This document shows positions 6,500 to 30,608 of a stretch of DNA of 30,789 bases, piece after piece; position 1 is the stretch's first letter, and the number at the start of each line of letters is the position of its first letter. A program made the position numbers and the translations under genes. The stretch comes from a virus: IMG/VR virus record IMGVR_UViG_3300045743_000462, positions 1 through 30,789 of that record. One strand, given 5' to 3'. The notes under the pieces are model-generated. The model worked only from the letters and a program-made list of their open reading frames with translations, was not told where the DNA came from and did no database searches.

Positions 6500-7651
6500 T
6501 TAGGTTTTTTTGCAGCGTTGCTCGGCATCGGCCACCAGCGACGATTTGCCCGCGTTCTGCGTTTGGGCCACGCGGGTGGCGGTCGCTTGCTCGGCGAACA
6601 GATGGGTGCCGGTTTGCGGGGTGGCCGCCAGCTTTTCTTTGTAGACGATGTAGCGGCTTTTCTGCACGCCGCCTTCGGCGTATTGCAGCGCGGCCCCGGT
6701 TTGCCAGTCCTTGTCGGTTGCCGGGTCTTGCTGGGCCAGGTGGTCCAGTTGCGCCACCTGAAAATCCTTGTCGGCTGGCAGCAGCTTGCCTGCGGTGATC
6801 AGCCCTTCGCAATAGGCCAGATGGCTGGCATGGCTGGCATGGCTGGCATCCTTTTGCGCTTTCACGCTGGCGGCGGTCAGGGTTGCGTTGGCTGCTTCCA
6901 GTTGCGCATTTTTTGTCTGCATTGCTGCAATCTCTTCGGGGGTCATCGTTTGCTCGCTAAAAATTGGGTTAATAATCGGGTTGGTAATGGCGTCGTCTTC
7001 TGGCACTTGCCGCAGTTCTCTGGCCGATTCTTCAATCTGGTCAATCTTCCAGCTCGGTAATAGGTTGTCGGCTTCATCCAGTCCTTTTTCGGCAATCATG
7101 TTGTCGCGCAGGTTACGCATCCAGCCTGCAAGCATTTCAAATGGGCGGGCCACCATCCACCCGGCGATGTCGGCATATTCCAGGCTGGCGGCAGCGGTGT
7201 CGCCTTCGGCGAAGGTAAAGCCGTCCATGCCCTTGACGACGGGTGGCGTTGCGCCTTGCAGGCCAAGGTGGCGAAGGTGCAATTTGCCGGGCGTCGGGTT
7301 GTGCGGGTTGGCGCGGTCGTACAGGGCGACGGAGACGTCCAGCCAGGACAGGTTTTTGATTTCGTTGGCGACCGGCTCGCTCATCATCACGTCGCCATAC
7401 AGTTTGCGGCCATCGCGTATCACGGCGGTGACGCCGCCATAGGATGGCGCATCGTTGCTGGGGTGGCCTTTGACCAACGGGGCAAAATGTTTGGTGCGGT
7501 TATAGGTTTGTGCGATCTCGTCGAGGTCGGCTTCGTTGTAGGTGCGGCGCTGACCGGCTCCATCGACATGCGTGCCGGTGCAGAAAATCTGCTTGCGCAT
7601 TGTCACGTACTGTGGCGGAGCGGAGGTTGGTGATGTCGATGGAGTAGTCAT
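6500..7651 (-). CDS. Prohead protease and scaffold, Mu I/Z-like
   Basis: A protein of about 383 residues. The N-terminal half (RTYNEADLDEIAQTYN, HFAPLVKGHP, LSWLDVSVAL, LHLRHLGLQGATPPVVKG) is the Mu gene I-type phage protease; the C-terminal part after about residue 235 is coiled-coil, Ala/Gln/Lys-rich and scaffold-like, as for the nested Z product of Mu. An internal in-frame ATG at 6946 (MTPEEIAAMQ) could give the free scaffold, 6500-6946. The start is uncertain: the frame opens at ATG 7675, but the candidate late promoter predicts transcription from about 7651, so ATG 7651 or ATG 7600 (MRKQIF) are likelier. None has a clear Shine-Dalgarno sequence. Confidence 0.85.
   Translation of the reverse strand: MTTPSTSPTSAPPQYVTMRKQIFCTGTHVDGAGQRRTYNEADLDEIAQTYNRTKHFAPLVKGHPSNDAPSYGGVTAVIRDGRKLYGDVMMSEPVANEIKNLSWLDVSVALYDRANPHNPTPGKLHLRHLGLQGATPPVVKGMDGFTFAEGDTAAASLEYADIAGWMVARPFEMLAGWMRNLRDNMIAEKGLDEADNLLPSWKIDQIEESARELRQVPEDDAITNPIINPIFSEQTMTPEEIAAMQTKNAQLEAANATLTAASVKAQKDASHASHASHLAYCEGLITAGKLLPADKDFQVAQLDHLAQQDPATDKDWQTGAALQYAEGGVQKSRYIVYKEKLAATPQTGTHLFAEQATATRVAQTQNAGKSSLVADAEQRCKKT
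6820..6849. repeat. Three 9-bp direct repeats (ATGGCTGGC) inside the protease/scaffold gene
   Basis: ATGGCTGGC occurs three times in a row and encodes, on the minus strand, the string SHASHASH in the linker or scaffold portion. It is a simple in-frame tandem repeat that probably varies in copy number. Confidence 0.8.
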
Positions 7652-7657
7652 GCAGCC

Positions 7658-7701
7658 ATGATGACGGCGCGCCATCGATACGTCATTTGACGCGCGTCAA
7701 A
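7658..7701 (-). promoter_or_regulatory. Candidate late promoter before the protease gene (equivalent of Mu PI)
   Basis: A perfect 16-bp palindrome TTTGACGCGCGTCAAA lies at 7686-7701. Exactly 22 bp downstream on the minus strand is CATCAT (7663-7658), a -10-like hexamer. The same palindrome, spacing and hexamer occur before the spanin gene at 14332-14375. There is no -35 box, as expected for an activator-dependent promoter. Mu has late promoter PI at this same position upstream of gene I, activated by a Mor/C family dimer. Confidence 0.65.
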
Positions 7702-7904
7702 ATCTGCCTGCCGGGAACCGGTATGCTGGCAAAGCGGGCTCTACTTCGGCGCAGCGGCCAATGCGGCGCGCAAATCACTAGTGCGCGGTAGCGTCACCAC
7801 CAGCGGCGCGCAGCAAGGGGGCGCAAACCCTTTATAAAGGGGGTCTGGCGCGCTGTGGCACCGATTTCACACCATCGCTATTTTAAACGCCTTATAGCGC
7901 GTTT
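7702..7904. other. Non-coding stretch between the G-like and protease genes
   Basis: No convincing gene is seen. It holds a perfect 14-bp palindrome CCCTTTATAAAGGG at 7828-7841 and a hairpin with 6-bp arms AAACGC (7885-7890) and GCGTTT (7899-7904) directly after the G-like gene stop codon. The hairpin may be a weak terminator for the upstream block before transcription restarts at the late promoter. Confidence 0.5.
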
Positions 7905-8387
7905 TTAGCCGATGACGGCTTTTTGCAGGAACGCGTAGCACACGGTTAACACGCCGTGCTCGGCCTCGGGGCTGAGGTTGCCGTTGGCGTCCATCGGCAA
8001 GTAGGGTCTGGCCTGGATGGTGACGCTATGGTTTTTGCCTGCGGTGCCGCCGAGCTGCTGGATGGCGGCATACGGGTGGGCGTCGCCTGCCACGCCAATG
8101 GCCGCATAGGCCGGGCCGCTGTCGGCGATGACGCTGCGCGCCAGCGCGCCGCTCACTTGCAGGATCTTGCCGGGCCAGCTGCCTTTTTTGGTCCGTTCCG
8201 CGATTGTGCGCGCTGACAGTGACGCCCAGCGCGGTTGGCCCTGGGCGCGGAAATTGTCCTCGGTCTGGGCCAGTAGTTCCGCCGCGATGGCGGGCATGAG
8301 TTTGTCGATGCGTCCGGTGCGGGCGATGGCATCGAGGGCGGTGTGTAGCTCCTGGCTGTGCAGGGTAAATTCAATCGGTGCGGTCAT
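7905..8387 (-). CDS. Virion morphogenesis protein, Mu gpG / P2 gpS-like
   Basis: A 160-residue protein starting MTAPIEFTLHSQELHTALDA. ATG 8387 overlaps the stop of the F-like gene by 4 nt; a longer open frame upstream is only a shadow. The core RWASLSARTIAERTKKG followed by ILQVSGALARSV and HPYAAIQQLGGTAGKNHSV, then ARPYLPM, is the hallmark of the phage virion morphogenesis (tail completion) family: a Trp-x-x-Leu segment, an L-x-x-SG-x-L motif and a final RP(Y/F)L. It takes part in joining head and tail. Confidence 0.88.
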   Translation of the reverse strand: MTAPIEFTLHSQELHTALDAIARTGRIDKLMPAIAAELLAQTEDNFRAQGQPRWASLSARTIAERTKKGSWPGKILQVSGALARSVIADSGPAYAAIGVAGDAHPYAAIQQLGGTAGKNHSVTIQARPYLPMDANGNLSPEAEHGVLTVCYAFLQKAVIG

Positions 8388-9256
8388 TGTGCGTGTCCTG
8401 GCAAAATTGTCTGGCTCAATGCGCCGACGGCGCCGTGCCAGCGGTTGGCCTCCGGTTGCCAGACCGCTTGGCCGACGTTGTAGGCAAAACCGGGGTCGGT
8501 GCGGATGATGATTGGCCTGCCCGCGTGGATGCTCTTGAACGATGCCTGTTTGGCTTCGCGCACGTTGTCGCCGCCGCCCACCGTGACCGTGCGCAGGGTG
8601 ATTGGTTCGGCGTCGGATGAGCGCAGCGCGTCGGATTCCCGCGCCAGCGCCGCCGCCGATACGGGCACCGCGCGGCAACGGCAAAGGTAGCCGTTGGGCG
8701 GGTAATAGTACTGCCAGAACACGTCGTCGTAGCGGTACATGCGCCCGTCCAGCGCGGCGTGATCGGGCCGGGTGCGCCGGTCCAGTACGGCGACATAGCG
8801 CCACACCGGGTGGGTATCGACCGCCGCCAGCATGGTCTTGTAGCGGCCCGCCATGAAGGCGCTTTGCATGTTGGTCTGGTAAATGGTCCATAGCCGCCGG
8901 GCGCTGCCCAGCTGCGCCGGGGCGGTGGTGCCGCCGTGCGCCGGTGTGATCTCGCCGGTGTCGGGGTCCACGGCTTTGCCCCACCAGCCTTTGCTTTGCA
9001 GCACGGGCGTCAAGTCGGCGCTGAATTGCTTGAAGGTCTGGCCCTGCTTTGCTGCCTTGATCAGCGCGTCGCTGATCGATTGCAGCACATCCAATTTGGT
9101 CACTTTGGCGACCGTGAATTGCTGTGCGTGCTGTTCGTCGAGCAGTTCGTGCCAGTCCCAGGTGATGGCAAATTTTTTGGCTTGAAAGTAGGCGATCACG
9201 TCTGCCGGGGCCAGGCCGATGACGGCTTTGACGTCCGCTTGCATGAGCTTAGGCAT
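8384..9256 (-). CDS. Minor head protein, Mu gpF-like (head morphogenesis family)
   Basis: A 290-residue protein with GAGG 9 nt before the ATG and an 8-nt overlap with the portal gene. Residues 118-200 carry the Mu F-type signature: ARRLWTIYQTNMQSAFMAGR, then VLDRRTRPDHAALDGRMY and finally YPPNGYLCRCRAVPVS with two close cysteines. This domain is shared by Mu gpF and SPP1 gp7-like minor head proteins that associate with the portal and may go with the DNA. It follows the portal gene, as in Mu. Confidence 0.9.
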   Translation of the reverse strand: MPKLMQADVKAVIGLAPADVIAYFQAKKFAITWDWHELLDEQHAQQFTVAKVTKLDVLQSISDALIKAAKQGQTFKQFSADLTPVLQSKGWWGKAVDPDTGEITPAHGGTTAPAQLGSARRLWTIYQTNMQSAFMAGRYKTMLAAVDTHPVWRYVAVLDRRTRPDHAALDGRMYRYDDVFWQYYYPPNGYLCRCRAVPVSAAALARESDALRSSDAEPITLRTVTVGGGDNVREAKQASFKSIHAGRPIIIRTDPGFAYNVGQAVWQPEANRWHGAVGALSQTILPGHAQ

Positions 9257-10751
9257 CTTGCAGTTCCTCGGCGACCATCAGGCGCCCGATGGTGTCTACT
9301 GCAAAATTGATTTTGGTCAGGGTGGCGCGCAGCGCGCTGTCGTCCATCGTGGGGTAGATGTCGGCCAGCGCCGCCTCGGCGCTCTCGAAGTCGCTATGCA
9401 GGCGCAGGGCGTCGATCACCGGCTTGATGAGTGCGACGGTGACGCCAGGCAGGATCTTGGTGAGATAGGCGGCGACGGCGGCGTCGATATCGATCTCGTC
9501 GGGCTGCTGCTCGGCGAAGGTCGGATCGGGCAGGCGCTTTTGCAGCGGGCCGCGCATCGCGCCGTGGTCCAGATCGCCCTCTTGCAGATTGTAGGCGCGC
9601 TGAAAATAAGCTGGTGTGAAGACGACCCCGGCGCTCTTGAGCTTTTCGTCACGTTCGGCGAGCGCTTTATCGACTTTGTCTTTTTCAAAGAGGCGGTACT
9701 TTGGCGTCTCGTCTGGCAGCAAACCAAAATTAAACCAGCAGAAGCGGTCAATGATGCCCTGAAAACCGTCACAGACCATGTCCGCATCGTCGTCGCGGAT
9801 GTCGTCGGTGACGCCGGTGCCTGCGGTGGCGCTGGCATGGGTGCGGTTGCCTTCGGTGGTGGCGTTTTGGCCTAGCAAGGCAATGTTGATGTCGGCTTTG
9901 CATTCATCGACCAGCAGCTTGTACTGGTTGTCGCCCGCGCCGACTTTGCGCTCCAAGAGCGTCACGGAGGCATCGTCGGGGATAACGGCGACGGCGTCTT
10001 CGACCATGTTTTCGAGTTGATCGGCCAGGTCGTCATAGGCTTCGGTCTTGGCGCTGCGCGGCAGTTTGCCGATGGGGAACGGCATGCCGTATTTTTCGCA
10101 AAATTTAACCCACCATTTCATGCTGCCCTGCATGAAGGTGACGGCCCAAAACACGAGCGACAGATCAGCTTCGCCATAGGGGTTGTCGTAGCTTGGGTCT
10201 TGTCGCACCAGGACGAACTTGGCCGGGTCGCACAGTTCGCCTAGTGGGTTGCCTGCGGCGCGAAAGCGCAGCAGGTTGTCTTGGTCAAAAAAGAACCAGG
10301 CGGCGGGCTTGGCTTCGACCTTGACGGGCCAGTATTGTCCGGCGCGGATGGCCCAGGTGATCTCGACGGGCTGATAGCCATACAATCCCGCGTTGAGCAT
10401 TTGCCGGATCAATGGCCGCACTTTCAGCTGGCCGAGCATGGTATTGACGGCGTCCAGCACGTCACCGCGCCCGATGTAGGTGGCGGCATCGATGCCGCGC
10501 TGCAAACGGACGACGGCGGCTTTGCGCCGTCGCACCAGCCCGGCGACAATCGGCACTTTTAACAGGTCGCTGTAGACGGCAATCGAGCGACCGGCGGCGC
10601 GCAGGATCTTGTCGGGGTTCGGCAGCTGATACCCTGCGATGGTAAAGCCCATGGCGCGGCTGCGGGTGGCGACCGCATCGAGGCCCGGTTCGTTGTTGTT
10701 GGTCAGCGGCATGAAGCCGCCATCGGCCAGGGCCAAATTGTCTTGTGTCAT
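9249..10751 (-). CDS. Portal protein, DUF935 family, Mu gp29-like
   Basis: A 500-residue protein. The N-terminal half contains RSRAMGFTIAGYQLPNPDKILR and the middle has AGLYGYQPVEITWAIRAG, FVLVRQDPSYDNPYGEADL and FCEKYGMPFPIGKLP, typical of DUF935 portals of Mu-like phages; C-terminal NFAVDTIGRLMVAEELQDA closes the protein. The dodecameric portal is the DNA entry channel and terminase docking site. The ATG overlaps the large terminase stop by 4 nt (ATGA). Confidence 0.92.
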   Translation of the reverse strand: MTQDNLALADGGFMPLTNNNEPGLDAVATRSRAMGFTIAGYQLPNPDKILRAAGRSIAVYSDLLKVPIVAGLVRRRKAAVVRLQRGIDAATYIGRGDVLDAVNTMLGQLKVRPLIRQMLNAGLYGYQPVEITWAIRAGQYWPVKVEAKPAAWFFFDQDNLLRFRAAGNPLGELCDPAKFVLVRQDPSYDNPYGEADLSLVFWAVTFMQGSMKWWVKFCEKYGMPFPIGKLPRSAKTEAYDDLADQLENMVEDAVAVIPDDASVTLLERKVGAGDNQYKLLVDECKADINIALLGQNATTEGNRTHASATAGTGVTDDIRDDDADMVCDGFQGIIDRFCWFNFGLLPDETPKYRLFEKDKVDKALAERDEKLKSAGVVFTPAYFQRAYNLQEGDLDHGAMRGPLQKRLPDPTFAEQQPDEIDIDAAVAAYLTKILPGVTVALIKPVIDALRLHSDFESAEAALADIYPTMDDSALRATLTKINFAVDTIGRLMVAEELQDA

Positions 10752-12304
10752 CGCGTAAATCCTGATGTGATGTCGGCGCGGCGACGTGCGCGGCGGCGAC
10801 TGTGTTTTTTGCTGGCGCTGCCACGGCTGGCGACGCGCAGCGGGCCGGTATTGAGTTCAAAGCTGGCATACACGCCCAACGCCAGCGCGATGGCGGCGTC
10901 GCCGTGGCGCTTTTGGCCTTTGTCGTCTTCGCTCTTGGTGCGCTCGCGCACCTGGGCGATGCCTTTGATCATCTCCAGCGTGCGCAGATCGTCGCGCATG
11001 TCGGCGTGGCGCGGGATGTCCTGGAGCGTGCGGTCTTCAAAGCAGCTTTTGAGTTTGGGCATGTGCTGGCGATACCAGGACTGGCTGAACATGATCTGGG
11101 CGATCAGCGCCGGGCCGTATTTTTGCATGGTCTTTTCCGCCACTTGCGCGCCATTGCCGCCCGCATCGAGCGCCGCGCCCATCAGGTTGGGCAGACGGTC
11201 CAGGATGTACCAGAGGATTTGCTCTTGCTGGTCGAACGGCACGTTTGCCATTTCCAGCACGAACGGCACGCGCCGCACCAGGTCGTCAGCGACGATGAGC
11301 GGGATGGCGATGCTCAGATCGACCTTGCGCGCAAAGTCCTGGCCCAGATAGGCGCGGACATTGGCAGGGATGGCGGCCAGCAGCGGGGCCAGTTCGCGTT
11401 CGCACCAATCGGCGATCTCGCGCTTGCGGTCCGCTTCCGGCAGGAAGACGAAGTCGGCGTCGCACTTGATGCGCACAATCGGTGTCGCTTCGCTCATGCA
11501 CGATTCGATGAGGGCGATGGAGAGGTATTTGCCGCCGCCTTTGCTCGGGATGCAATCGAGTTCTTCGGCGGCGGCGTCGCCATAAAAATTGCGTATCTGG
11601 GCGATCTTGGCCGCTTCGACGGCGGGCGACCAGTCTTCGTTCAGGACCAAGCAGATGCGCTGGATCAGGCCATCTTTGACCGCATCGTCAAACGTGATGG
11701 TGTGGACCGAATAGGCCAGCTTGCCTTCGTGGCAGGCGGTGATGATCTCGTTAAAATGGTTGCCGGTGCCGTTGTGGGTCGAGATGATATGTACTTGACC
11801 GCCCCACATGGTGACGGCCATGGCCGCTTTGAGCAGTTCTTCCAAGTCGGGGTGGAACGCGGCCTCGTCCAGGATCAGGCGTCCGCGCTTGCCGCGCAGG
11901 TTGGCTGGCGCGGACGATAGCGCGGTGATCTTGTAGCCGCTGGCAAAGTTGACGGTCCAGGTCTTGACACTTTTTTTCTCGTCACCCTCGACCCAGACTT
12001 CTTCGCCTTCGGTGATCTCGCTGGCCGCCATTTGATAGAAGGCGGACCAGCCTGCGCAGTCGCGGATAAACTCTTTGGCCATGTCGTGGTTGTATCCCAC
12101 GTACCAGCTATCCATGCCATTTTCGCGGGAGGCCAGCAGGGTGCAATCGGCGGCTTCGCCAAACGACAGACCGCAGCGCCGGGTCTTTTCAACGATTTTG
12201 ACCTGGCTGGTGTCTGCGATCCAGCGCTTTTGATAGGGCAGCAGCACGCCCGACGCGGGCGTGATGCGGGTCGGTTTGAGCGATTGGTCGGCGATGGCGG
12301 CCAT
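10748..12304 (-). CDS. Terminase large subunit, Mu gp28-like
   Basis: A 518-residue packaging ATPase and nuclease. An N-terminal Q-like PYQKRWIAD segment (24-31) is followed by a P-loop-like VEKTRRCGLSFGEA (38-51) and Walker B LILDEAAF (143-150, with D146 and E147). The RNase H-like nuclease is seen as LGQDFARKVDLS (D323), ALDAGGNG (D380) and the late HGDAAIAL (D469). The very basic tail (KKHSRRRARRRADIT) may bind DNA. The start shares one base with the stop of the small subunit (TAATG), so expression is coupled. In Mu-like phages the enzyme packages headful DNA starting at the phage end with host DNA attached. Confidence 0.93.
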   Translation of the reverse strand: MAAIADQSLKPTRITPASGVLLPYQKRWIADTSQVKIVEKTRRCGLSFGEAADCTLLASRENGMDSWYVGYNHDMAKEFIRDCAGWSAFYQMAASEITEGEEVWVEGDEKKSVKTWTVNFASGYKITALSSAPANLRGKRGRLILDEAAFHPDLEELLKAAMAVTMWGGQVHIISTHNGTGNHFNEIITACHEGKLAYSVHTITFDDAVKDGLIQRICLVLNEDWSPAVEAAKIAQIRNFYGDAAAEELDCIPSKGGGKYLSIALIESCMSEATPIVRIKCDADFVFLPEADRKREIADWCERELAPLLAAIPANVRAYLGQDFARKVDLSIAIPLIVADDLVRRVPFVLEMANVPFDQQEQILWYILDRLPNLMGAALDAGGNGAQVAEKTMQKYGPALIAQIMFSQSWYRQHMPKLKSCFEDRTLQDIPRHADMRDDLRTLEMIKGIAQVRERTKSEDDKGQKRHGDAAIALALGVYASFELNTGPLRVASRGSASKKHSRRRARRRADITSGFTR

Positions 12305-12828
12305 TACCCGCCGATGCCCAGGATCTTGCGCTTGATTTCGTCGGCAGCTTCGTCGGACAGGCCGCCGCCTTTTTTGAGGGTCTTTTCGAGCGCTTGCGCT
12401 GCTTCCTTGATGCGGGCTTTGACGCTGGCCTTGTATTCTTTCAGGCCAATGCTCGATTTGGTGAGCGCGGCGACGGCTTTGACGAGGTCGGTGAAATCGA
12501 CTTTTTCAGGGTCGATTTTCATCTTCATCATGATTTCCATGGCGTTGGATAAGGCGAGCTGGCCGACCGCTTCCGCCAGGTCGGCCTGATCGTCGCCGAT
12601 CTGCGCGACGACGGCGCTGGCGACCTCCTGGCTGGCGCGCAGCCGGTTGATGTTTTCTTCATACTCCGAGCCATACCGGTGCAGCGCGCTCTTGCTGATG
12701 TCGATGCCACGCTCGGCCAGCTGGGCGGCCAGCGCTTCGTAACCGGAAAAGGAATTGGCAATCAACGCTTGATTGAGCCAATCCCGGTCTTCGGGTGGCA
12801 ATTTTTTAACGCCGGAGACGGGCGGCAT
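12304..12828 (-). CDS. Terminase small subunit, DUF3486 family, Mu gp27-like
   Basis: A 174-residue protein starting MPPVSGVKKLPPEDRDWLNQ. ATG 12828 overlaps the upstream stop by one base (TGATG); residues further upstream are a shadow. The N-terminal helix-turn-helix-like segment (ALAAQLAERGIDISKSALHRYGS) and long helical C-terminus are typical of DUF3486 proteins, the probable DNA-recognition subunit of Mu-like terminases. Gene order before the large terminase supports this. Confidence 0.88.
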   Translation of the reverse strand: MPPVSGVKKLPPEDRDWLNQALIANSFSGYEALAAQLAERGIDISKSALHRYGSEYEENINRLRASQEVASAVVAQIGDDQADLAEAVGQLALSNAMEIMMKMKIDPEKVDFTDLVKAVAALTKSSIGLKEYKASVKARIKEAAQALEKTLKKGGGLSDEAADEIKRKILGIGG

Positions 12829-13445
12829 CAGTGCCGCCCATTGCATTCTGGCCGGGGCATGATGCCGGGCAGCATGGAGGTGGTGCCCTGGGCGATATCG
12901 GTGCCTTCGCGGGTCAGCACCACTTGCCAATACGGGCCGTCGTCGCGTGTGATGGTGATCAGTTTGCGCTTTTCCAGATAGCCCAGCTCGCAGCGCAATT
13001 GGACGGCGCCGACCGGCATGGAGACGTCATGGATGCTCATTTGCATGATGGTCTCATCCATTGGGTATGGTGCGGCGACGGTGAGCGCGTGCAGGATGCG
13101 CCCGCGCAGCATGGTGCGTTGCAGCTGCTGCATGTCGGGTGTGGTCGGCCCGGCAGGTCGGGCGATACCGGCCTCGCACGTGACGGTATATTCGACCAGG
13201 TCAACGCCGTGCCAGGTCAAATCGGCCTGCCAGTGCGGTTGGTCGCGGGTCAGCTTGATCAGTTCGCGCTGGTCCAGATAGGCCAGCTCTTGCCGCATCT
13301 CTTCGCGGGTCGGGTGCGCCAGGGGCTGCATGGCCGCGTGCAGCAGTTCGTCTGACAATGGCTGGGTGCGGTCCTGATACAGGGCGATCATGATGTGCCA
13401 GCGCAGCAAGTAGCGCCGGTTATTTTGCAGGTGGTGTTGGCTCAT
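12828..13445 (-). CDS. Protein with two tandem winged-helix domains
   Basis: A 205-residue protein that is an internal duplication. Residues about 11-88 and 110-188 both carry the pattern RxELxYLxxRxLIxxTRD-WQxxLTxxGxD, which is a winged-helix DNA-binding fold ending in a beta-hairpin wing. Mu-like phages often have a single-domain protein of about 100 residues at this place, before the small terminase; here two copies are fused with a Pro-rich linker (ARPAGPTTPD). The function is unknown; a role in packaging-site recognition or late regulation is conceivable. Confidence 0.7.
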   Translation of the reverse strand: MSQHHLQNNRRYLLRWHIMIALYQDRTQPLSDELLHAAMQPLAHPTREEMRQELAYLDQRELIKLTRDQPHWQADLTWHGVDLVEYTVTCEAGIARPAGPTTPDMQQLQRTMLRGRILHALTVAAPYPMDETIMQMSIHDVSMPVGAVQLRCELGYLEKRKLITITRDDGPYWQVVLTREGTDIAQGTTSMLPGIMPRPECNGRH

Positions 13446-13463
13446 TGCTGGTCCTTAGAATAC

Positions 13464-13757
13464 TTACGATACACGGGGGCTGTTCATGAATTTGTCGAGT
13501 AATTTGCTTTGGCCCTGTTGCAGCAGATCGAGCTGGCGCTGCATGGTGACGGTTTCGCGCAGCCAGTCGTCGCGGCGCAGGGTTTCGGCGCTGATCTTGT
13601 CGACCCGCTGGCTTAATGCGGTTTGGGCGGCTTCGATGACTTTGTAGCGCTCGTCCTGGCGCTTTTCATAGAGGCTTAAAAATTGCCGCCAGACGCCATA
13701 AAATGCGCTGATCAAGCCCAATAGCAGGGTGATCGCCTGCCATACGCTGAGCACCAT
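13464..13757 (-). CDS. Membrane-anchored coiled-coil protein, DUF2730-like
   Basis: A 97-residue protein with one N-terminal transmembrane segment (VWQAITLLLGLISAFYGVW, about residues 4-22) followed by a charged coiled coil (KRQDERYKVIEAAQTALSQR and onwards). ATG 13757 is preferred because GGAG lies 6 nt upstream; a GTG 12 nt earlier is possible. Its position after the spanins and before terminase, and its architecture, fit DUF2730 proteins of Mu-like phages. A role in lysis is possible but unproven. Confidence 0.7.
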   Translation of the reverse strand: MVLSVWQAITLLLGLISAFYGVWRQFLSLYEKRQDERYKVIEAAQTALSQRVDKISAETLRRDDWLRETVTMQRQLDLLQQGQSKLLDKFMNSPRVS

Positions 13758-13769
13758 GCCTGACTCCAC

Positions 13770-14279
13770 TTAGGGGGTGGTGCGGCATGCCGCACGCAAG
13801 GTGGTCGCCAGTGACTGGCATGCACCCAGTTGCAGGCTTACTTGATCGGCTTCGCCGGTAAGATCAAGAAGAAATTGAGTAGCCGTTGCTGAAAGCTCGG
13901 CGGTGGCGGTCTCATGATCGCCGCTGGCAGGTCCGGCAGGACCGGCACCGGGGTTTCGATCACACGTACTGTCGGCGATGCGCAGCCGCACAGCGCCAGC
14001 ACGCACGCGGTCAGCAAGCTGTTTTTGATTGATTTGCGCATTGGACAGCTCCTGTTGAAATGAAAGGGTGAGCTTGCCAACGCCCGCTTGCGCCTCTGCC
14101 TCGATACCATGGACACGTTGATGGGCTGCGATCATGGCGGCGCTCGTGGCGCGCTCCGCAGCGATGGCGACGGCGGTCTGGTGGTGCGTCAATGACGGCA
14201 CGACGACAGCCAAGGCCACCGATGCGCCCAGGATGGCGGCAATCAGGTGTGTGGCAACAGGGAAAGGACAATCAAGCAT
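13770..14279 (-). CDS. Inner-membrane spanin, Rz-like
   Basis: A 169-residue protein with an N-terminal signal-anchor (HLIAAILGASVALAVVVPSL, residues 11-30), then a long periplasmic helical region and a C-terminal section with VRLRIADSTCDRN, TAELSATATQFL and QLGACQSL, the usual pattern of Rz/LysB-type i-spanins. The o-spanin is nested in another frame, which strongly supports the call. Spanins fuse inner and outer membranes in the last step of lysis. GAGG lies 7 nt before the ATG; it is the first gene after the candidate late promoter at 14332-14375. Confidence 0.85.
   Translation of the reverse strand: MLDCPFPVATHLIAAILGASVALAVVVPSLTHHQTAVAIAAERATSAAMIAAHQRVHGIEAEAQAGVGKLTLSFQQELSNAQINQKQLADRVRAGAVRLRIADSTCDRNPGAGPAGPASGDHETATAELSATATQFLLDLTGEADQVSLQLGACQSLATTLRAACRTTP
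13838..14041 (-). CDS. Outer-membrane spanin, Rz1-like lipoprotein, nested in the i-spanin gene
   Basis: A 67-residue lipoprotein wholly inside the Rz-like gene in another frame. ATG 14041 is chosen for AGGAG 8 nt upstream; the frame also opens earlier. MRKSIKNSLLTACVLALCGC is a basic N-terminus plus hydrophobic stretch and lipobox ending at Cys20, followed by a short Pro-rich periplasmic part (PVPVLPDLP, MRPPPPSF), as in Rz1 proteins. It would be anchored in the outer membrane and bind the i-spanin. Confidence 0.88.
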   Translation of the reverse strand: MRKSIKNSLLTACVLALCGCASPTVRVIETPVPVLPDLPAAIMRPPPPSFQQRLLNFFLILPAKPIK

Positions 14280-14331
14280 AAAACAACCTCGGCAAGCTCA
14301 TTGATAAAACACCTCGTTGGTGTGAGCTTTC

Positions 14332-14375
14332 ATGATGCCAAAGTTGCTTGCGGATGTAATTTGATGCGCGTCAAA
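14332..14375 (-). promoter_or_regulatory. Candidate late promoter before the spanin genes (equivalent of Mu Plys)
   Basis: TTTGATGCGCGTCAAA at 14360-14375 is a 16-bp palindrome with one mismatch. On the minus strand it is followed after exactly 22 bp by CATCATG (hexamer 14337-14332), the same arrangement as at 7658-7701. Transcription would start near 14325 and enter the spanin-terminase-head operon. The likely activator is the Mor family protein encoded at 24327-24686. Confidence 0.65.
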
Positions 14376-14463
14376 ATCAGACGGCGAATTGAGGCGGGAT
14401 ACAGTTTAACCCCGCGTTACTGGGTATGTGGGGGACTGCAAATACCCTTTATTTATCGAGTCG
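14376..14463. other. Non-coding gap after the lipoprotein gene, with two dyads
   Basis: No gene is seen. Arms GGGTAT (14422-14427) and ATACCC (14442-14447) form a hairpin, and on the plus strand this is followed by a T-rich run (TTTATTT). A second GCGGG/CCCGC dyad is close by, between about 14395 and 14415. These could end the moron transcript before the late promoter, but no classical T tract follows on the minus strand. Confidence 0.4.
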
Positions 14464-15222
14464 TTAATCGACCGGACCATTGTTATACGCCAGCTTGCGT
14501 AGCCCAGCAACCGTTTCAGCATGGCTGGCCGCGTAGTTGGTTCTTTCAAAAACATACAGGTCAAGCGTGTTGTCACAATGCCGTTTTTTGGTGCCGCCTT
14601 CAAAGATGATCGCCAACGCATCGAAAACCTGATACGGCGTCACGTCATTAACAATGGTTGTCACCTGTCCCGCTGATTTCACCAGGTCGTCTGGCGTGCC
14701 AACGCATACGGCGCTTGCCGCACGCAGCGCTGCATCATAGGGCGTCTCGTCAGCCGGGACAGATGTTTGCGACTGCGACGGAACGCCAGTCAGAAACAAG
14801 GTTAGATCACCGTTCGATTCGCGCTGTCTGTCGAGACATAAATTTTGGCAGCCTTCTTTTGCTATAACCAAGCGCCTGCCGTCCTTGCTGACATCAAAAA
14901 AACAGGTGTGACCCCTTGCCATGTACTCCCCAGGTATCCCCGTGTCGCTCTCAGGAATTTTTACCGTAATACCCGGCCTGTATCCTTCTTCCACCGATTG
15001 TTCGCGCAGTGATGCGGCATAGGTATCCAAACCGGAGCACGCTTGCCGAATTTTGGGCCATGCTGCGGTGAGCAATTTCTTTGTTTCTGGGCGGACCCCT
15101 TCCGGCATTTTTATTTCAAGCGGGGGCGCTTGTTTTGCTGGGGCGGGTTGAGTCGATGGGGCATCGTCGCCACAACCCGCCAACGTGAATATGAGTAATC
15201 CAAGGCAAAAATTAAATCTCAT
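14464..15222 (-). CDS. Putative lipoprotein of unknown function
   Basis: A 252-residue exported lipoprotein. The signal peptide MRFNFCLGLLIFTLAGC ends in a lipobox LAGC with Cys17, followed by Asp-Asp and a Pro/Ala-rich linker. The mature part has seven or more Cys (for example CSGL, GHTCFFD, EGCQNLCLD, AVCVGT, RHCDNT), suggesting a disulphide-rich periplasmic domain. I do not recognise the family. It overlaps the membrane protein gene upstream by 4 nt (ATGA), so they are co-translated. Asp at +2/+3 often signals inner-membrane retention in enteric bacteria, which would fit a cell-surface or superinfection-exclusion role; this is only inference. Confidence 0.75.
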   Translation of the reverse strand: MRFNFCLGLLIFTLAGCGDDAPSTQPAPAKQAPPLEIKMPEGVRPETKKLLTAAWPKIRQACSGLDTYAASLREQSVEEGYRPGITVKIPESDTGIPGEYMARGHTCFFDVSKDGRRLVIAKEGCQNLCLDRQRESNGDLTLFLTGVPSQSQTSVPADETPYDAALRAASAVCVGTPDDLVKSAGQVTTIVNDVTPYQVFDALAIIFEGGTKKRHCDNTLDLYVFERTNYAASHAETVAGLRKLAYNNGPVD

Positions 15223-16148
15223 ATTTCAGCCACCTTTTCATAGCCGTAAGGCATATTCGCGGCTTTATTATTGACGACGCTACCACCATTCCATACCATG
15301 CGCAGGCCCAATTTATCAGTATCATCTGATCGGGTGTGTACCTGTGCGATTCTAGCAATTGCCTTACGCGTTACATCATCTAAATTTGGATAATGCATAA
15401 TCAATTCGCGCGCGTCCGATGACATGCCTTTCAGCAATTCAGCGTCACCTTGCAGTTGCTCGTTCGCCTCAACTAACTTCCTCTTTGCTTCAGCATCCTC
15501 GGAACGCTCCCGTGATCTCTGCTTTACCCATACTATGCTGTAGTAGACACTGAGAATAAATGGCACAACCATTAGACGTTCCGTCGCATCTGCAATAATC
15601 TGGTACTTGTAAGCAAAACCGACTGGTATTGTCAGGAGTAAAAACAGATAGCAAATAGCATTTTGACGCCGACCGCCAACAACTTGCCTAGTAATTCCGT
15701 TCTTCTTACTTGCCAAATATCCTATCACGCCGAACACCGGCCAGCCAACGAAATGAACACCATCAGAACTTTTAGCGAACCACAAAAGACGCAAAAGCTT
15801 CGCAAGCCAGACAGCGCAGTTAAGCATCAAATACAGTTCTGGTTTGTACCAATAAAATTGCATCCATAAACCAAATATTTGCACCAAAATATCGTAAAAA
15901 GCCAGCTCACGCATATCTTGTATGATATCACTGCGACCGCACAGACTAATCAGAAAAAATAGTCCACAGGAAAAAGCAATTAAAACAATGTAATACATAT
16001 GGTTTGCTGGCACATGTTGGCGTAAAAAATTATCAGCTAATTTTTCTGAACCTGACACGAAAATTGTCCATATCAACAATCTTAAACACATCTCATCGGC
16101 AATGCTATTGCTATTGGTTTCAGCTTGCGAAGGCTTTTGATTTTTCAT
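15219..16148 (-). CDS. Polytopic membrane protein with C-terminal coiled coil, unknown function
   Basis: A 309-residue protein. Hydrophobic segments are seen near residues 22-32, 52-70 (YYIVLIAFSCGLFFLISLC), 84-100, 105-125, 134-146, 166-180 and 193-207, so there are perhaps six or seven membrane spans. From about 210 on it is cytoplasmic and charged (KQRSRERSEDAEAKRKLVEA) with a probable coiled coil. Codon use is distinctly AT-rich compared with the phage genes on both sides, a sign of separate acquisition. No clear Shine-Dalgarno sequence. Paired with the lipoprotein gene, it is a candidate lysogenic-conversion or exclusion factor. No named family is recognised. Confidence 0.72.
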   Translation of the reverse strand: MKNQKPSQAETNSNSIADEMCLRLLIWTIFVSGSEKLADNFLRQHVPANHMYYIVLIAFSCGLFFLISLCGRSDIIQDMRELAFYDILVQIFGLWMQFYWYKPELYLMLNCAVWLAKLLRLLWFAKSSDGVHFVGWPVFGVIGYLASKKNGITRQVVGGRRQNAICYLFLLLTIPVGFAYKYQIIADATERLMVVPFILSVYYSIVWVKQRSRERSEDAEAKRKLVEANEQLQGDAELLKGMSSDARELIMHYPNLDDVTRKAIARIAQVHTRSDDTDKLGLRMVWNGGSVVNNKAANMPYGYEKVAEI

Positions 16149-16347: not shown

Positions 16348-17055
16348 TTAGGCAACTCCCTTCGTCCTCCCACGGTTCTGGTCACGATTCCAATCTGCCG
16401 CAGCCCGAATCGATTTTCGCAAAGATGTAGATGCTGATCGGTAACACTGGATCAATTGCTCTACACCTGCGTGCTCATCAGGACAATCCGCTGCAGCGAG
16501 GATAACCCTACGGATTTGTGACGGTGCGGAGCGGAACGCCTTGGCTAACAATTGTTCATCATCATCAAAATCTGCCCCGCCCCCCATGACATCGCAATCA
16601 GTGACCAGTACCACAGGTATTTTCTGAGCGATGGACTTGCACACAGTATGCGCAAGTTCACAGACTGTGTGCTCATCGGCCATCGGCAGCATTCGACAAA
16701 TTCCTAGCATCGCTTGCTGTGCATTTTTCTGTGCCAAGCGATATGCCTTAATCAGAACTTGCTCATCGTCGTTGGTTTCCAATAGGCTATGTCCGCCAAA
16801 GTCAACGGTGGTGTGACCAACCTCAATTCGTTTTTTTCGCACACCTGTCAACAAGTAATCTAAATCTGCGCCAGCGGAGACGAACTTATCGAGTGAGCGC
16901 TTCCCCATCTCGTTCGCCCCACGCTCATACTTCCCCCACATTTCACGGGTGACGCCACAGTTCATCCCTGCTTCTTCTTGGGTCTGCCACCCCAGCCTGT
17001 CTCTTTCGTCTGCGATTCTTAGTCCGATCGCGACAAGATCTTTTACTTTTTTCAT
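16348..17055 (-). CDS. Phage repressor, helix-turn-helix (C-repressor-like)
   Basis: A 235-residue protein. ATG 17055 (AAGGGAAA upstream) is preferred over a GTG at 17130, because it places the XRE-type helix-turn-helix at residues 11-72: RIADERDRLGWQTQEEAG, then CGVTREMWGKYERGANEM and LDKFVSAGADLDYLLTG. The C-terminal part has three copies of a helical motif at about 95-122, 164-191 and 197-222 (DDEQxLxKAxRxA, then ILxAAAD). It is divergent from the Ner-like gene across an AT-rich operator region, the standard place for the lysogeny repressor. It would hold the early promoter off. Confidence 0.82.
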   Translation of the reverse strand: MKKVKDLVAIGLRIADERDRLGWQTQEEAGMNCGVTREMWGKYERGANEMGKRSLDKFVSAGADLDYLLTGVRKKRIEVGHTTVDFGGHSLLETNDDEQVLIKAYRLAQKNAQQAMLGICRMLPMADEHTVCELAHTVCKSIAQKIPVVLVTDCDVMGGGADFDDDEQLLAKAFRSAPSQIRRVILAAADCPDEHAGVEQLIQCYRSASTSLRKSIRAAADWNRDQNRGRTKGVA

Positions 17056-17130
17056 GCGTAATTTCCCTTTTTGATGCGGTTTATTACCTTCCCCCGACAC
17101 ATTGTTTCCAAAAACAAACATCTTCAACAC

Positions 17131-17341
17131 ATCCTTCCGTGCCGAAGTTCAAAACAATAACAAATATTTCCAACTTTGTCCAAGCAAATGCACAAAATTC
17201 CCATAAATTCGCATTTTATGCAAATACTTCACATTTTATGAGAACTATATTTTATAATTTCTCTTGACATTACACATAATTCCCACAATACTTACAATTA
17301 ATCCATTACAGTCCACATATTTCCAGAAGGTTGATTAAATT
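17131..17341. promoter_or_regulatory. Divergent operator/promoter region between repressor and early operon
   Basis: An AT-rich 211-bp region without genes. It contains direct repeats suited to repressor or Ner binding: CATTTTATG at 17212-17220 and 17232-17240 (20 bp apart, two helical turns) and AATTCCCAYA at 17196-17205 and 17278-17287, the second copy overlapping the spacer and -10 box of the early promoter. A minus-strand promoter for the repressor may use TTGGAC (17183-17178) and TATTGT (17159-17154), 18 bp apart. Confidence 0.6.
17264..17292 (+). promoter_or_regulatory. Early promoter
   Basis: A perfect -35 box TTGACA (17264-17269), a 17-bp spacer and a -10 box AATACT (17287-17292). 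Transcription would start near 17299, about 43 nt before the Ner-like gene, and run through the replication genes. Confidence 0.7.
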
Positions 17342-23718: not shown

Positions 23719-24330
23719 ATGACCGAGCCTGGAAAGAAGTGGCCCAAACGCTGGGTGAGAAACGACGCTGAAAAAAAGGCGCAGCAAATCAAGTTGATCC
23801 ATGTCGGCCAGACTTTTCTGAAAATGGACGATAGCACTTACCGTTGCATGCTCGCTGAGATCGGCGGCGTAACATCGTCCAAGGATCTGACGCTGGATGG
23901 CTGCGCCAAAGTGCTGGCGCATATGCGCACCAAGGGTTTTATTCCCGCGCCCAAGCAGGCCAGCGCGAAAGCAGCGCCCAGCAGAAAAATGGATGACTCG
24001 GCGCAATCTAAAATGATCCGGGGCTTGTGGCTGGAGCTGCATGACTTCGGCTTCGTGCGCAACCCAGCCGAAGCCGCCTTGGCCGCTTACGTCAAACGGC
24101 AGACCGGCACGGAGGCGTTGCAATGGCTGACATCAAAGCAAGCATCGGATGTCATCGAAAGCCTCAAGGAATGGCGTATGCGGGCGCAGGACGAGCTTAA
24201 AAAGCAATTCGGCATGACGGTTCAAGATCTGGAATCCGCAGCGCTGGCGCTCTATGGCAATACTGCACTGACTGCGGAGACCTGCACCAAACTTCAGGCG
24301 CATTTCAGGGCGCAAGCGAGCCAAAAATGA
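23719..24330 (+). CDS. gemA: Regulatory protein GemA
   Basis: A 203-residue protein. ATG 23719 (GAGG 5 nt upstream) is chosen over a frame that extends into gam. KAQQIKLIHVGQTFLKMDDS and RCMLAEIGGVTSSKDLTLDG are the GemA (DUF1018) signature, followed by KMIRGLWLELHDFGFVRNP and a TGTEALQWLTSKQASDVIES segment. In Mu, GemA modulates expression of host genes including those for DNA topology. It overlaps mor by 4 nt. Confidence 0.92.
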   Translation: MTEPGKKWPKRWVRNDAEKKAQQIKLIHVGQTFLKMDDSTYRCMLAEIGGVTSSKDLTLDGCAKVLAHMRTKGFIPAPKQASAKAAPSRKMDDSAQSKMIRGLWLELHDFGFVRNPAEAALAAYVKRQTGTEALQWLTSKQASDVIESLKEWRMRAQDELKKQFGMTVQDLESAALALYGNTALTAETCTKLQAHFRAQASQK

Positions 24331-24686
24331 CGACCCAAGCCGAGTTGATGCGCAATGATTTTTTTCAGACGATCATGGCCACGGCTATCGCCGGTGGGAC
24401 CGACTTTGGCATGGATTCTTCAATAGCCGAGCAGTTCGCCTGCAATTTGGTAAACGCCATTGCAAAAGATTTTGGTGGGCAAAATCTGACGGTGCCGAAG
24501 GATTTCTATTTCGCATTGTCCAAGCGAGATCTGGAAATTTACAAAAAATTCAGCGGGTCAAATTATCACGTCCTAGCCCGTGAATACAACCTCAGTACGC
24601 GGCGCATCAGGACGATTTGCGAGACCATGGGCCAGCGCGATCTGGCGAAACGCCAACCACGACTGTTTGAGGATAAAAATGAATAG
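24327..24686 (+). CDS. mor: Mor-family transcription activator
   Basis: A 119-residue protein of the Mu Mor/C family. The signature is the C-terminal helix-turn-helix after a dimerisation domain: LSKRDLEIYKKFSGSNYHVL, then AREYNLSTRRIRTICETMG. Only one Mor/C gene is present in this window, whereas Mu has two. The most economical reading is that it activates the late promoters marked by the palindromes at 7686-7701 and 14360-14375. ATGA overlap with gemA. Confidence 0.93.
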   Translation: MTTQAELMRNDFFQTIMATAIAGGTDFGMDSSIAEQFACNLVNAIAKDFGGQNLTVPKDFYFALSKRDLEIYKKFSGSNYHVLAREYNLSTRRIRTICETMGQRDLAKRQPRLFEDKNE

Positions 24687-27205: not shown

Positions 27206-27856
27206 ATGAGCATACGCCGTCTGCCTGTCTATTTATTACTGGATACTTCCGGCTCAATGCGCGGTGAGCCGATTGAGTCGGTCAATGTCGGCCTGCGCGC
27301 CATGCTGGCGTCGCTACGCCAGAATCCCTATGCACTGGAAAGCGTGCATCTGTCGATCGTCACCTTCGACTCCACCGTCAATGAAGTCTTGCCGCTGACA
27401 GCGCTGGAAAACGTCGTCATGCCGGACATCCGCTGCCCCGAATCGGGGGCCACCTTGCTGGGCGAGGCGCTGGAAGTGTTATGCGCCAAGGTCGAGCGCG
27501 AAGTGCAAAAATCGAGTGAGACGCAAAAAGGCGATTGGCGGCCGTTGCTGTTTATCATGACCGATGGCAAACCAACCGATACGCTGGCCTATGAAGAAGC
27601 CATTGCACGTGTGAAACGCGCCAACTTCGCGGCGGTGATCGCCTGCGCCGCCGGACCGAAGGCAGTGCCCGACCAATTGAAGCAACTGACGGCGCAAGTG
27701 GTCAGCCTCGACACCATGGACAGCAACGCATTTTCCAGCTTCTTCCAATGGGTCAGCGCGACCGTGACCTCGGGCAGCAGCAATCAAGGGCAAGGCGGCA
27801 GCAGCACCACCATGGCATTACCACCACCGCCGCCCGAGGTGCAGGTTGTTATTTAA
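27206..27856 (+). CDS. terY: TerY-like von Willebrand factor A protein
   Basis: A 216-residue vWA protein close to TerY in size. The MIDAS metal site is complete: DTSGSM (D13, S15, S17), T83 in SGATLLGEAL, and D120 in MTDGKPTD. The C-terminus has a Gly/Ser-rich linker and a five-proline run (ALPPPPPEVQVVI). There is no signal peptide, so it acts in the cytoplasm. vWA proteins of this type occur with a PP2C phosphatase and a kinase in the TerY-P triad described by comparative genomics as a stress-signalling module linked to the Ter system; the present neighbours fit this exactly. Direct biochemical function is not established. Confidence 0.9.
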   Translation: MSIRRLPVYLLLDTSGSMRGEPIESVNVGLRAMLASLRQNPYALESVHLSIVTFDSTVNEVLPLTALENVVMPDIRCPESGATLLGEALEVLCAKVEREVQKSSETQKGDWRPLLFIMTDGKPTDTLAYEEAIARVKRANFAAVIACAAGPKAVPDQLKQLTAQVVSLDTMDSNAFSSFFQWVSATVTSGSSNQGQGGSSTTMALPPPPPEVQVVI

Positions 27857-27932
27857 ACGGATTGTGATTTAAGCTGCTTATTATTTACACAAATTTCGGC
27901 GAACCGCCCCGCTAATTTGCTCAGGAACTTTC

Positions 27933-28985
27933 ATGCGCCGCTTGCCTATTTTCTTGCTGCTCGATGTCTCGGAATCGATGATCGGCGACAACCTGCGTCA
28001 ATTGCAGCAAGGGATTGCCTCCCTTGTGGGCAAATTGCGCACCGACCCGCATGCGCTGGAAACGGTGTATTTATCGGTGATCGCCTTTGCCGGCAAGGTA
28101 CGCACACTTGCGCCCCTGACCGAATTGGCAATGTTCTATCCGCCACACCTGCCGGTCGGGGCCGGTACTTCACTGGGCGCGGCGCTCGATCATCTGATGA
28201 CCGACATTGAGCGCACCGTGGTCAAAAACACCGCCGAACGCAAGGGTGACTGGCGGCCGATTGTGTATTTGATGACCGATGGCAAGCCGACCGATGACAC
28301 TGAGGCCGCCTTTGCACGCTGGCAACGCGATTTCGCCAGCCGCGTGACGCTGGTGGCGATTGGCGTCGGCCAGCATGCCGCGCTCGACACCTTGCGCCAG
28401 CTCAGTGCGCACGTACTGCATCTGCAAGCCGACAACGAACAGGATTTCCGCCGTTTCGTCGATTGGGTCAGCATGTCGATTTCGGCCCAAAGCCGCAGCG
28501 TCGCCAGCACCACCAGCGGCATGGTCAATCTGGCGAAACTCGACAACGGCATCATGCAGCAAGTGAGCGCCATTGGACGGGCGGCCCATGTTGATGCCGA
28601 TTTTGTCATCATCAGCGCGCGCTGCCAGAGCAACCGTCTGCCGTACCTGATCAAGTACGAACGGGTGGCCGAGACGCTGGAGCGCAGCGGCTTTCGCCTG
28701 CAACTGGAACGCTATCATTTGACCGGCGTGTTCGCGCTGGAACAGGATTATTATGGCATGTCGGACGAACGCGGCTTGGCTGCGAGCGTCAATTCCGACA
28801 CCCTGATCGGCTCTCCCGGCTGCCCGCATTGCGGCAACCCGATTGGGTTTGCCATTTGCCGTTGCGGTCAGGTGATGTGCCTGCGCGGGCCGGGACATGC
28901 GACTTGTCCGGCCTGTCTGAAAGAAGGCGAATTCGGCATCTCGGAGGCCAGCGATGGCTTCGAGGTCAACCGCTCGCGCGGCTAA
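27933..28985 (+). CDS. TerY-like vWA protein with C-terminal zinc ribbon (TerY-C domain)
   Basis: A 350-residue protein with AGGA 6 nt before the ATG. The vWA domain (1-200) has DVSESM (D11, S13, S15), T79 in GAGTSLGAAL and D116 in MTDGKPTDD. Residues about 210-285 form a second, unknown region, and about 297-331 is a cysteine-rich metal site: CPHCGNPIGFAICRCGQ, then CLRGPGHATCPAC, the TerY-C type. The first 120 residues are clearly paralogous to the preceding protein, so the pair arose by duplication with gain of the zinc domain. It is likely to take part in the same kinase/phosphatase module. Confidence 0.9.
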   Translation: MRRLPIFLLLDVSESMIGDNLRQLQQGIASLVGKLRTDPHALETVYLSVIAFAGKVRTLAPLTELAMFYPPHLPVGAGTSLGAALDHLMTDIERTVVKNTAERKGDWRPIVYLMTDGKPTDDTEAAFARWQRDFASRVTLVAIGVGQHAALDTLRQLSAHVLHLQADNEQDFRRFVDWVSMSISAQSRSVASTTSGMVNLAKLDNGIMQQVSAIGRAAHVDADFVIISARCQSNRLPYLIKYERVAETLERSGFRLQLERYHLTGVFALEQDYYGMSDERGLAASVNSDTLIGSPGCPHCGNPIGFAICRCGQVMCLRGPGHATCPACLKEGEFGISEASDGFEVNRSRG

Positions 28986-29036
28986 AAAGACCGGGCATGG
29001 CGATGCACACATTCACGCATTGATTGGAACAATCGT

Positions 29037-30608
29037 ATGAACCAGGATTTCTCAAATCAGGTGCAGGCCATGCTGCTGCTGCGGCAACCGGCGCAGGACC
29101 CGGCCCTGATCGAGGCGTTTCTCGCCAGCGCGCGCGGCGCAAGCTGCATGACCGCGTTTGAAACACTGCTCACCCATGAACTGAACGAATTTCAGCATTT
29201 CCAAATAGCGCAAGCGGCCAAAGCGGCCAAAGCCGCGAACGTCAGCCCACCCGCCGCGCCCATGCCCGCGTCCGAAACCATGCCACCGAGCGAACCTGCC
29301 ATGCCTACACCAGAACGCCCCGCCCTCTTGTTCCGCCTGCAAAACGGCCGTGTCGGCGAGCCGTATGCGCAGCCCTTGATCCCGATCCCGAGCGATGCGC
29401 CGCCGGTAGTGTTGCTCGATTTGACTCTACCACCCGAATTGGGCCTCCTGGCCAATCTGGCCAACGCGCATGTGGCAGGTTGCCCGGCGCTGGCGGGCGA
29501 ATTCGATTTGGCGCTGCGTTACCATTTTGCCGCCGATGCACCGGACCAAGAACGGCAAGCCAGCGTCAAGTTATTGATCAATCCCGATCCAAAATCGCTC
29601 TGGAAAGACTTGCCCTCGGATCGCAACGCCCCGTTCTGGCGCGCAGACGCCGCCGCGCAATTGGTGCAAGGGTCCGAACTGTCGATCATCGCCGCCAGCA
29701 AACGCGGGCGCTCGCATGCGCACGTGGGCAGCTTTCGCGATGACGATTTCGCGCTGCTGCATCTGCCTGACAGCGGCTGGTATTGCGCGGTGGTGGCCGA
29801 TGGCGCGGGCAGCGCCAAATACGCACGGCGCGGCGCCAGCATCGTCTGCCAGCAAGCCATGCACTACCTGGAACAAAGTCTGAACGGCCCGCAAGGCGAG
29901 GCAGTGGCGCAGGCGGCGGCCAACTTCCACGCCGCGCGCGCCTTGCACTTGCAGGAGTCTGCGCCAGAGAAACCAGCACAAGCGCAATCGCCAGCGCCGG
30001 AGCCCGCGCCCTTGCAGCAAGCGCGCCAGCATTTGCATCACCAGCTGTATCAAACCGTGGGCTACGCCGCCTACCATGCAGTAAAAGCGATTGTTGGCGA
30101 AAGCGCAGCGCAACCGGACTTGCAGGCCAGTTATCAGGATTTTTCCACCACGGCCCTGATTACGGCTTGCCGCCGCTTCCCGTTTGGCGTTTTGTGCGCC
30201 GCTTATTGGGTTGGCGACGGTGCGCTGGGCATCTATAGCAAATCTGGCGGTATCCAATTGTTGGGCGAAGCCGATGGCGGAGAATATTCCGGGCAGACGC
30301 GCTTTCTCAATCAAGCCGAAGTCACTCAGGACGCCTTGCTGCGGCGCACCCGCTTCGCGCTGGTGGACGATTTCACGGCATTGATGCTGATGACCGATGG
30401 CGTCTCCGACCCTAAATTCGAGACCGAGGCCAAGCTGGCGCAAGCGGCTGGCTGGGACAGCCTGTGGCAGGAACTGGAACAGGCCACCGGTTTGCCGCTG
30501 GTGCAACCAGGCGTCGAACAACGCCTGTTGACGTGGCTTGATTTCTGGTCCACCGGCAATCACGATGACCGCACACTGGCGATTATTTTACCGGGGGCCG
30601 CCGCATGA
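29037..30608 (+). CDS. PP2C-family Ser/Thr phosphatase of the TerY locus
   Basis: A 523-residue protein. The phosphatase domain begins at about residue 215: HAHVGSFRDDDFALLHLPDS, then VVADGAGSAKYARRGAS (metal-binding D about 254), AAYWVGDGALGIYS, LMLMTDGVSDPKFE (D about 450) and GNHDDRTLAIILP near the end (D about 510); all the PP2C metal aspartates are visible. The N-terminal 200 residues hold an Ala/Lys repeat, a Pro-rich linker and an unrecognised domain. An Ala/Gln/Pro-rich insertion lies near 300-330. It would remove phosphate from targets of the adjacent kinase. Its stop overlaps the kinase start by 4 nt. Confidence 0.9.
   Translation: MNQDFSNQVQAMLLLRQPAQDPALIEAFLASARGASCMTAFETLLTHELNEFQHFQIAQAAKAAKAANVSPPAAPMPASETMPPSEPAMPTPERPALLFRLQNGRVGEPYAQPLIPIPSDAPPVVLLDLTLPPELGLLANLANAHVAGCPALAGEFDLALRYHFAADAPDQERQASVKLLINPDPKSLWKDLPSDRNAPFWRADAAAQLVQGSELSIIAASKRGRSHAHVGSFRDDDFALLHLPDSGWYCAVVADGAGSAKYARRGASIVCQQAMHYLEQSLNGPQGEAVAQAAANFHAARALHLQESAPEKPAQAQSPAPEPAPLQQARQHLHHQLYQTVGYAAYHAVKAIVGESAAQPDLQASYQDFSTTALITACRRFPFGVLCAAYWVGDGALGIYSKSGGIQLLGEADGGEYSGQTRFLNQAEVTQDALLRRTRFALVDDFTALMLMTDGVSDPKFETEAKLAQAAGWDSLWQELEQATGLPLVQPGVEQRLLTWLDFWSTGNHDDRTLAIILPGAAA

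Follow-up and report, generated by a model that had tools for sequence, protein, structure and literature searches.

Paired dyad and -10 modules as probable Plys and PI late promoters of a Mu-like phage with a Mor/C-family activator

The window, by which we mean the whole stretch of DNA analysed here, is a 30.8 kb virus record whose late genes, pointing leftward, begin at about 14.3 kb and follow the order Rz, small and large terminase, portal, F, G, protease, capsid, sheath, tube, chaperone and tape measure. The early genes (Ner-like, transposase A and B, GemA, Mor and methyltransferase) run rightward, and a repressor-like HTH gene is found at 16348-17130. The window terminase shares up to about 55% identity with terminases of Mu-like phages. 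An earlier note on this DNA had pointed to a Mor-family gene at 24327-24686, an assignment borne out by its Pfam match and by its nearest solved structures, Mu C and Mor. The features on which the argument is built are the following.

6500..7651, minus strand: head-maturation protease gene (PHROG 976, E=3e-68), with a start position common to relatives
7658..7663, minus strand: predicted PI -10 element CATCAT, 21 bp past the PI dyad
7685..7702, minus strand: candidate PI operator, a TTTTGA-CGCGCG-TCAAAT dyad with its centre at -42.5; place and spacing are the same in relatives
13770..14279, minus strand: Rz i-spanin gene, the first after Plys (PF03245, E=7e-15; PHROG 2466)
14332..14337, minus strand: predicted Plys -10 element CATCAT, 21 bp past the dyad, with a predicted +1 at 14325 and a 46-nt leader
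14359..14376, minus strand: candidate Plys operator, a TTTTGA-CGCGCA-TCAAAT dyad
24327..24686, plus strand: Mor/C-family activator gene (PF08765, E=1e-23), with Mu C (9L0X) and Mu Mor (1RR7) as the nearest solved sequences

Two other regions of the window deserve mention in their own right. Between the repressor region and Plys, at 14464-16148, lie a lipoprotein-like and a membrane-like gene, neither with a Pfam match, which may be lysogenic-conversion genes; the lipoprotein-like one, the first of the two, has a distant homologue at the same place in one relative (L037). Past the early region, at 27206-30608, VWA, VWA+TerY_C and PP2C genes stand in a row and make up a phosphorylation cassette of the TerY-like kind. 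It is either cargo or host DNA at the flank, and PADLOC returned no match for it.

The palindromes TTTGACGCGCGTCAAA at 7686-7701 and TTTGATGCGCGTCAAA at 14360-14375, which the earlier note had singled out, are both present. On the minus strand each runs into CATCATG after 22 bp, and no consensus -35 box is seen at either. In the register common to relatives, the module is better described as an 18-mer, TTTTGA-CGCGC(G/A)-TCAAAT, followed by exactly 21 bp and CATCAT. The two copies precede the head-maturation protease gene and the Rz spanin gene (PHROG 976 and PF03245 matches), and thus occupy the Mu PI and Plys positions, as had been claimed. A promoter on the plus strand, with TATGCT or TACAGT, was also considered and rejected, since its two spacings differ by 4 bp and the late genes all run the opposite way.

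Within the window, a palindrome search with up to 3 mismatches gave six strand-wise matches against 1.4 expected from shuffles, and besides the two modules these comprised one weak match only, at 282-297 inside the tape-measure region, read on both strands. A de novo scan for gapped 6-N6-6 dyads followed by 21 bp and a -10, grouped by half-site, yielded exactly the two modules, and the same scan on the reversed window yielded none. No copy of the module precedes the tail chaperone within the window. The window ends in the tape measure, ahead of the site at which the earlier note had predicted a third copy (the baseplate, or Mu PP, position), so that two of four expected sites are visible.

To place these modules in context we turned to relatives. 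Searches of viral contigs with the protease, Mor and capsid proteins retrieved no close relatives, nor did the exact module occur in viral contigs; distant relatives were therefore read gene by gene. This gene-anchored reading replaced an all-against-all palindrome-pair scan of the relatives, which was swamped by chance pairs from GC-rich coding DNA. The prophages compared belong to genomes of the same family and order as a Rhodoferax genome (Burkholderiales, taken broadly as in GTDB), and some of them carry Neisseria-like uptake sequences.

The same design, a 6-N6-6 dyad, 21 bp and a -10, stands at the same places in Mu-like prophages of Burkholderiales and Neisseriales, in E. coli PhiKM, in the KP12 prophage and in Pseudomonas phage B3. 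Ahead of the protease gene, one relative (L077) reads TTTTAA-atccga-TTAAAA, 21 bp, CATCAT, GGCTCC and ATG, and another (L083) reads TTTTAA-cccgat-TTAAAA, 21 bp, GATCAT, GGCGGC and ATG. A second copy precedes the lysis genes in six of the relatives (L077, L078, L080, L083, L086 and L087), and in L094-L100 more copies are found ahead of the tail chaperone and of the small baseplate gene preceding J. PhiKM and the KP12 prophage carry all four copies each, while B3 has three, with TTTTCG-N6-CGAAAA dyads ahead of the holin, protease and tape measure genes. Related prophages thus hold the proposed class of late promoters at both Plys and PI, with the same geometry and other half-sites; they also hold the third copy predicted for the Mu PP position, as well as a fourth, ahead of the tail chaperone.

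The rule nevertheless has limits. The module in this exact form was not found in Mu or KS10, and a wider set of 12 Mor-bearing elements yielded no convincing groups of sites in a de novo scan, so that the module rule would seem to cover a large part, not all, of the Mor-bearing elements. Among the phages compared, that of the window alone showed an intact TTTTGA-N6-TCAAA(A/T) dyad. Three relatives (L075, L076 and L081) were set aside: CGGAACCCGTTCCG, or CGGAACCCCTTCCG in L081, precedes their protease promoter and is possibly another operator class.

Several other observations concern the relatives themselves. In four prophages with Neisseria-like uptake sequences (L078, L087, L095 and L100), a stem-loop with a T-run directly follows each late promoter, for example CGCTGTATCTcccgcAGATACAGCGATTTT past the -10, and promoter and terminator-like element overlap. 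GC-rich relatives have an inverted repeat without a T-run around the -10 (GCCGCC-GATCAT-GGCGGC). L077, L078, L082 and L087 carry their terminase/portal genes in one arm and their protease/capsid genes in another, the two being divergent or separated, an arrangement that the KS10 paper called unique to KS10 (PMC2628397). The KP12 prophage (L141, OM835952) is a complete-looking Mu-like prophage that was deposited within Klebsiella phage KP12, a phage assigned to Vequintavirinae; it is probably host prophage DNA in the KP12 preparation.

The spacing was counted over every TTAA-N6-TTAA in 14 relative loci, whatever follows it, a total of 60 strand-wise dyads, with a -10-like hexamer defined by A at position 2, A or C at 5 and T at 6. 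Such a hexamer lies at distance 21 after 26 of the 60 dyads, compared with 0-5 cases at any other distance from 8 to 39. The half-site, on the other hand, varies: it is TTTTAA in PhiKM and KP12, TTTTAG in L082, TTTTCG in B3, L038 and L040, and TTTTGA in the window. Being uniform within one phage and changing symmetrically between phages, with place and spacing kept among relatives, it speaks for a phage-encoded dimer. The earlier suggestion of an undescribed operator must accordingly be narrowed. The site is not wholly separate, since relatives share its geometry, but TTTTGA does stand as one specificity variant within a wider operator family. In our literature search no paper describing the module for BcepMu-like phages came up, which is weak evidence given the limited coverage of subscription papers.

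Taken globally, the two modules very probably serve a Mu-like transposable phage as its late promoters Plys and PI, activated by its Mor/C-family dimer. A host regulator of the FNR/Anr/DNR type, which would tie the late genes to oxygen or NO status, is one alternative. TTGAC-GCGC-GTCAA and TTGAT-GCGC-GTCAA resemble the FNR box, TTGAT-N4-ATCAA, with T to C changes; they are the only two TTGAYN4RTCAA sites in the window, and their centre at -42.5 is close to the -41.5 of class II promoters, which likewise combine a TTGAY-N4-RTCAA dyad with the absence of a -35. The homologous promoters of relatives, however, have TTAA, CTAA or CGAA half-sites at the same place and are not FNR boxes. The exact 16-mer, moreover, does not look like a common host box: a single copy turned up in 101 genomes sampled from the family, and that copy falls in coding sequence. 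Overall, we regard control by a host box as very unlikely.

Palindromes near a promoter could also serve a repressor, and the HTH gene at 16348-17130 would supply one, in which case the modules would be phage operators that silence the late genes in the lysogen. Yet the site takes the place of the -35, upstream of the -10 at a fixed and strictly kept distance, as in activator-dependent promoters, and a promoter that lacks a -35 needs an activator anyway, which makes a repressor operator highly improbable. Lastly, short palindromes are common and the window has only two copies, but chance likeness is a negligible prospect, as none of 60 first-order resamples produced a comparable pair, two matching near-palindromes with the same hexamer at the same distance, and the module recurs at the same genes in relatives.

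Returning to activation by a Mor/C-family dimer, the window's Mor-family protein is the only candidate of a known type for the operator dimer, and is presumed to bind both operators. By alignment its recognition helix reads S90-T91-R92-R93-I94-R95, while most TTTTAA phages have S-L-Q-W-I/V-Y or T-V-Q-Q-I/V-Y. In G331 and phiSHP3 the helices read G-E-R-G-M-R or T-E-R-G-I-R, and their dyads are imperfect with G at half-site position 5 (TTCTGC-N6-TCAAAA, TTTTGC-N6-TCAATA and CTGTGA-N6-GCAAAT). It is plausible, on the strength of just three proteins, that the Gln-to-Arg change in the helix (R92) pairs with the A-to-G change in the half-site. R95 alone does not set the half-site, as G237 has an M-Q-I-R helix together with a TTAA dyad. 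The TTTTCG phages L038 and L040 retain Q-Q in the helix.

Mechanistically, a dimer of the single Mor/C-family protein would bind TTTTGA-N6-TCAAAT, centred at -42.5, and bring host sigma-70 RNA polymerase to a promoter without a -35, with the CATCAT -10 exactly 21 bp downstream. Activation of Plys and PI would in turn switch on two sets of genes, those for lysis/packaging and those for protease/capsid, and the protease mRNA would be leaderless, with its 5' end at the AUG. We infer Mor binding, late timing, start sites and the leaderless protease mRNA from the DNA and its relatives.

This scheme has counterparts in known systems. Like those of the window phage, the Mu late promoters serve lysis, protease and baseplate genes and depend on an activator of the same family. 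Their dyad overlaps the -35 or lies upstream of it, the -35 is poor and the -10 departs from consensus, features that are alike here (PMC4461284). Mu itself, on the other hand, lacks the 6-N6-6 dyad and 21 bp form in our scan, its gene I has a leader whereas the window PI is apparently leaderless, the window half-site is TTTTGA, and the window's relatives have an extra copy ahead of the tail chaperone. At Mu Pm, a Mor dimer occupies a 16-bp dyad at -51 to -36, centred at -43.5, with no functional -35 (PMC4287176). The window dyad, centred at -42.5 if +1 lies 7 nt past the -10, is 1 bp closer. Mu Pm drives the middle operon, whereas the window promoters would drive late structural and lysis genes, and one Mor-family protein apparently does the work of both Mor and C. 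The modules of PhiKM, the KP12 prophage and B3, which stand at Plys, PI and tail or baseplate genes, share with the window the 6-N6-6 dyad, the exact 21 bp and the -10, and differ in their half-sites.

The start codons are the last element of the module. In 21 of the 45 promoters compiled by hand, an ATG lies 6 or 7 nt past the -10, at or beside +1, a fraction somewhat inflated because a few sites (e.g. phiSHP3 PI) were located partly by the position of the ATG. This set includes the annotated baseplate gene starts of PhiKM, at 17272, and of KP12, as well as the window protease, whose start is best read as ATG 7651-7649, 6 nt past the -10, rather than the in-frame upstream ATG at 7675. No obvious Shine-Dalgarno sequence precedes the ATGs so placed, and their position implies leaderless late mRNAs, which thus appear to be produced at about half of the module sites. 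For L080 and L083, the ATG of the lysis copy belongs to the inverted repeat that flanks the -10, and it is perhaps not a start codon. In phage B3 (L138, 19835-19890) the protease is annotated as starting at 19857, at a codon other than ATG that falls within the promoter; going by the module, it may instead have a leaderless start, at ATG 19887. What is new here is the TTTTGA specificity, the strict spacing and this frequent placement of the ATG.

As a tentative proposal, about which we are slightly more doubtful than confident, Mu-like phages would share one rigid design (6-N6-6, exactly 21 bp and a -10) in which the half-site is retuned together with the Mor recognition helix and the mRNA often starts at the AUG, giving leaderless capsid protease and baseplate messages. 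With the module, late promoters can be sought by a simple sequence rule in transposable phages distant from Mu, culturable ones of E. coli and Pseudomonas among them, and a Mor/C recognition code becomes testable. The predicted leaderless late mRNAs, in turn, would explain some protease starts that look mis-annotated.
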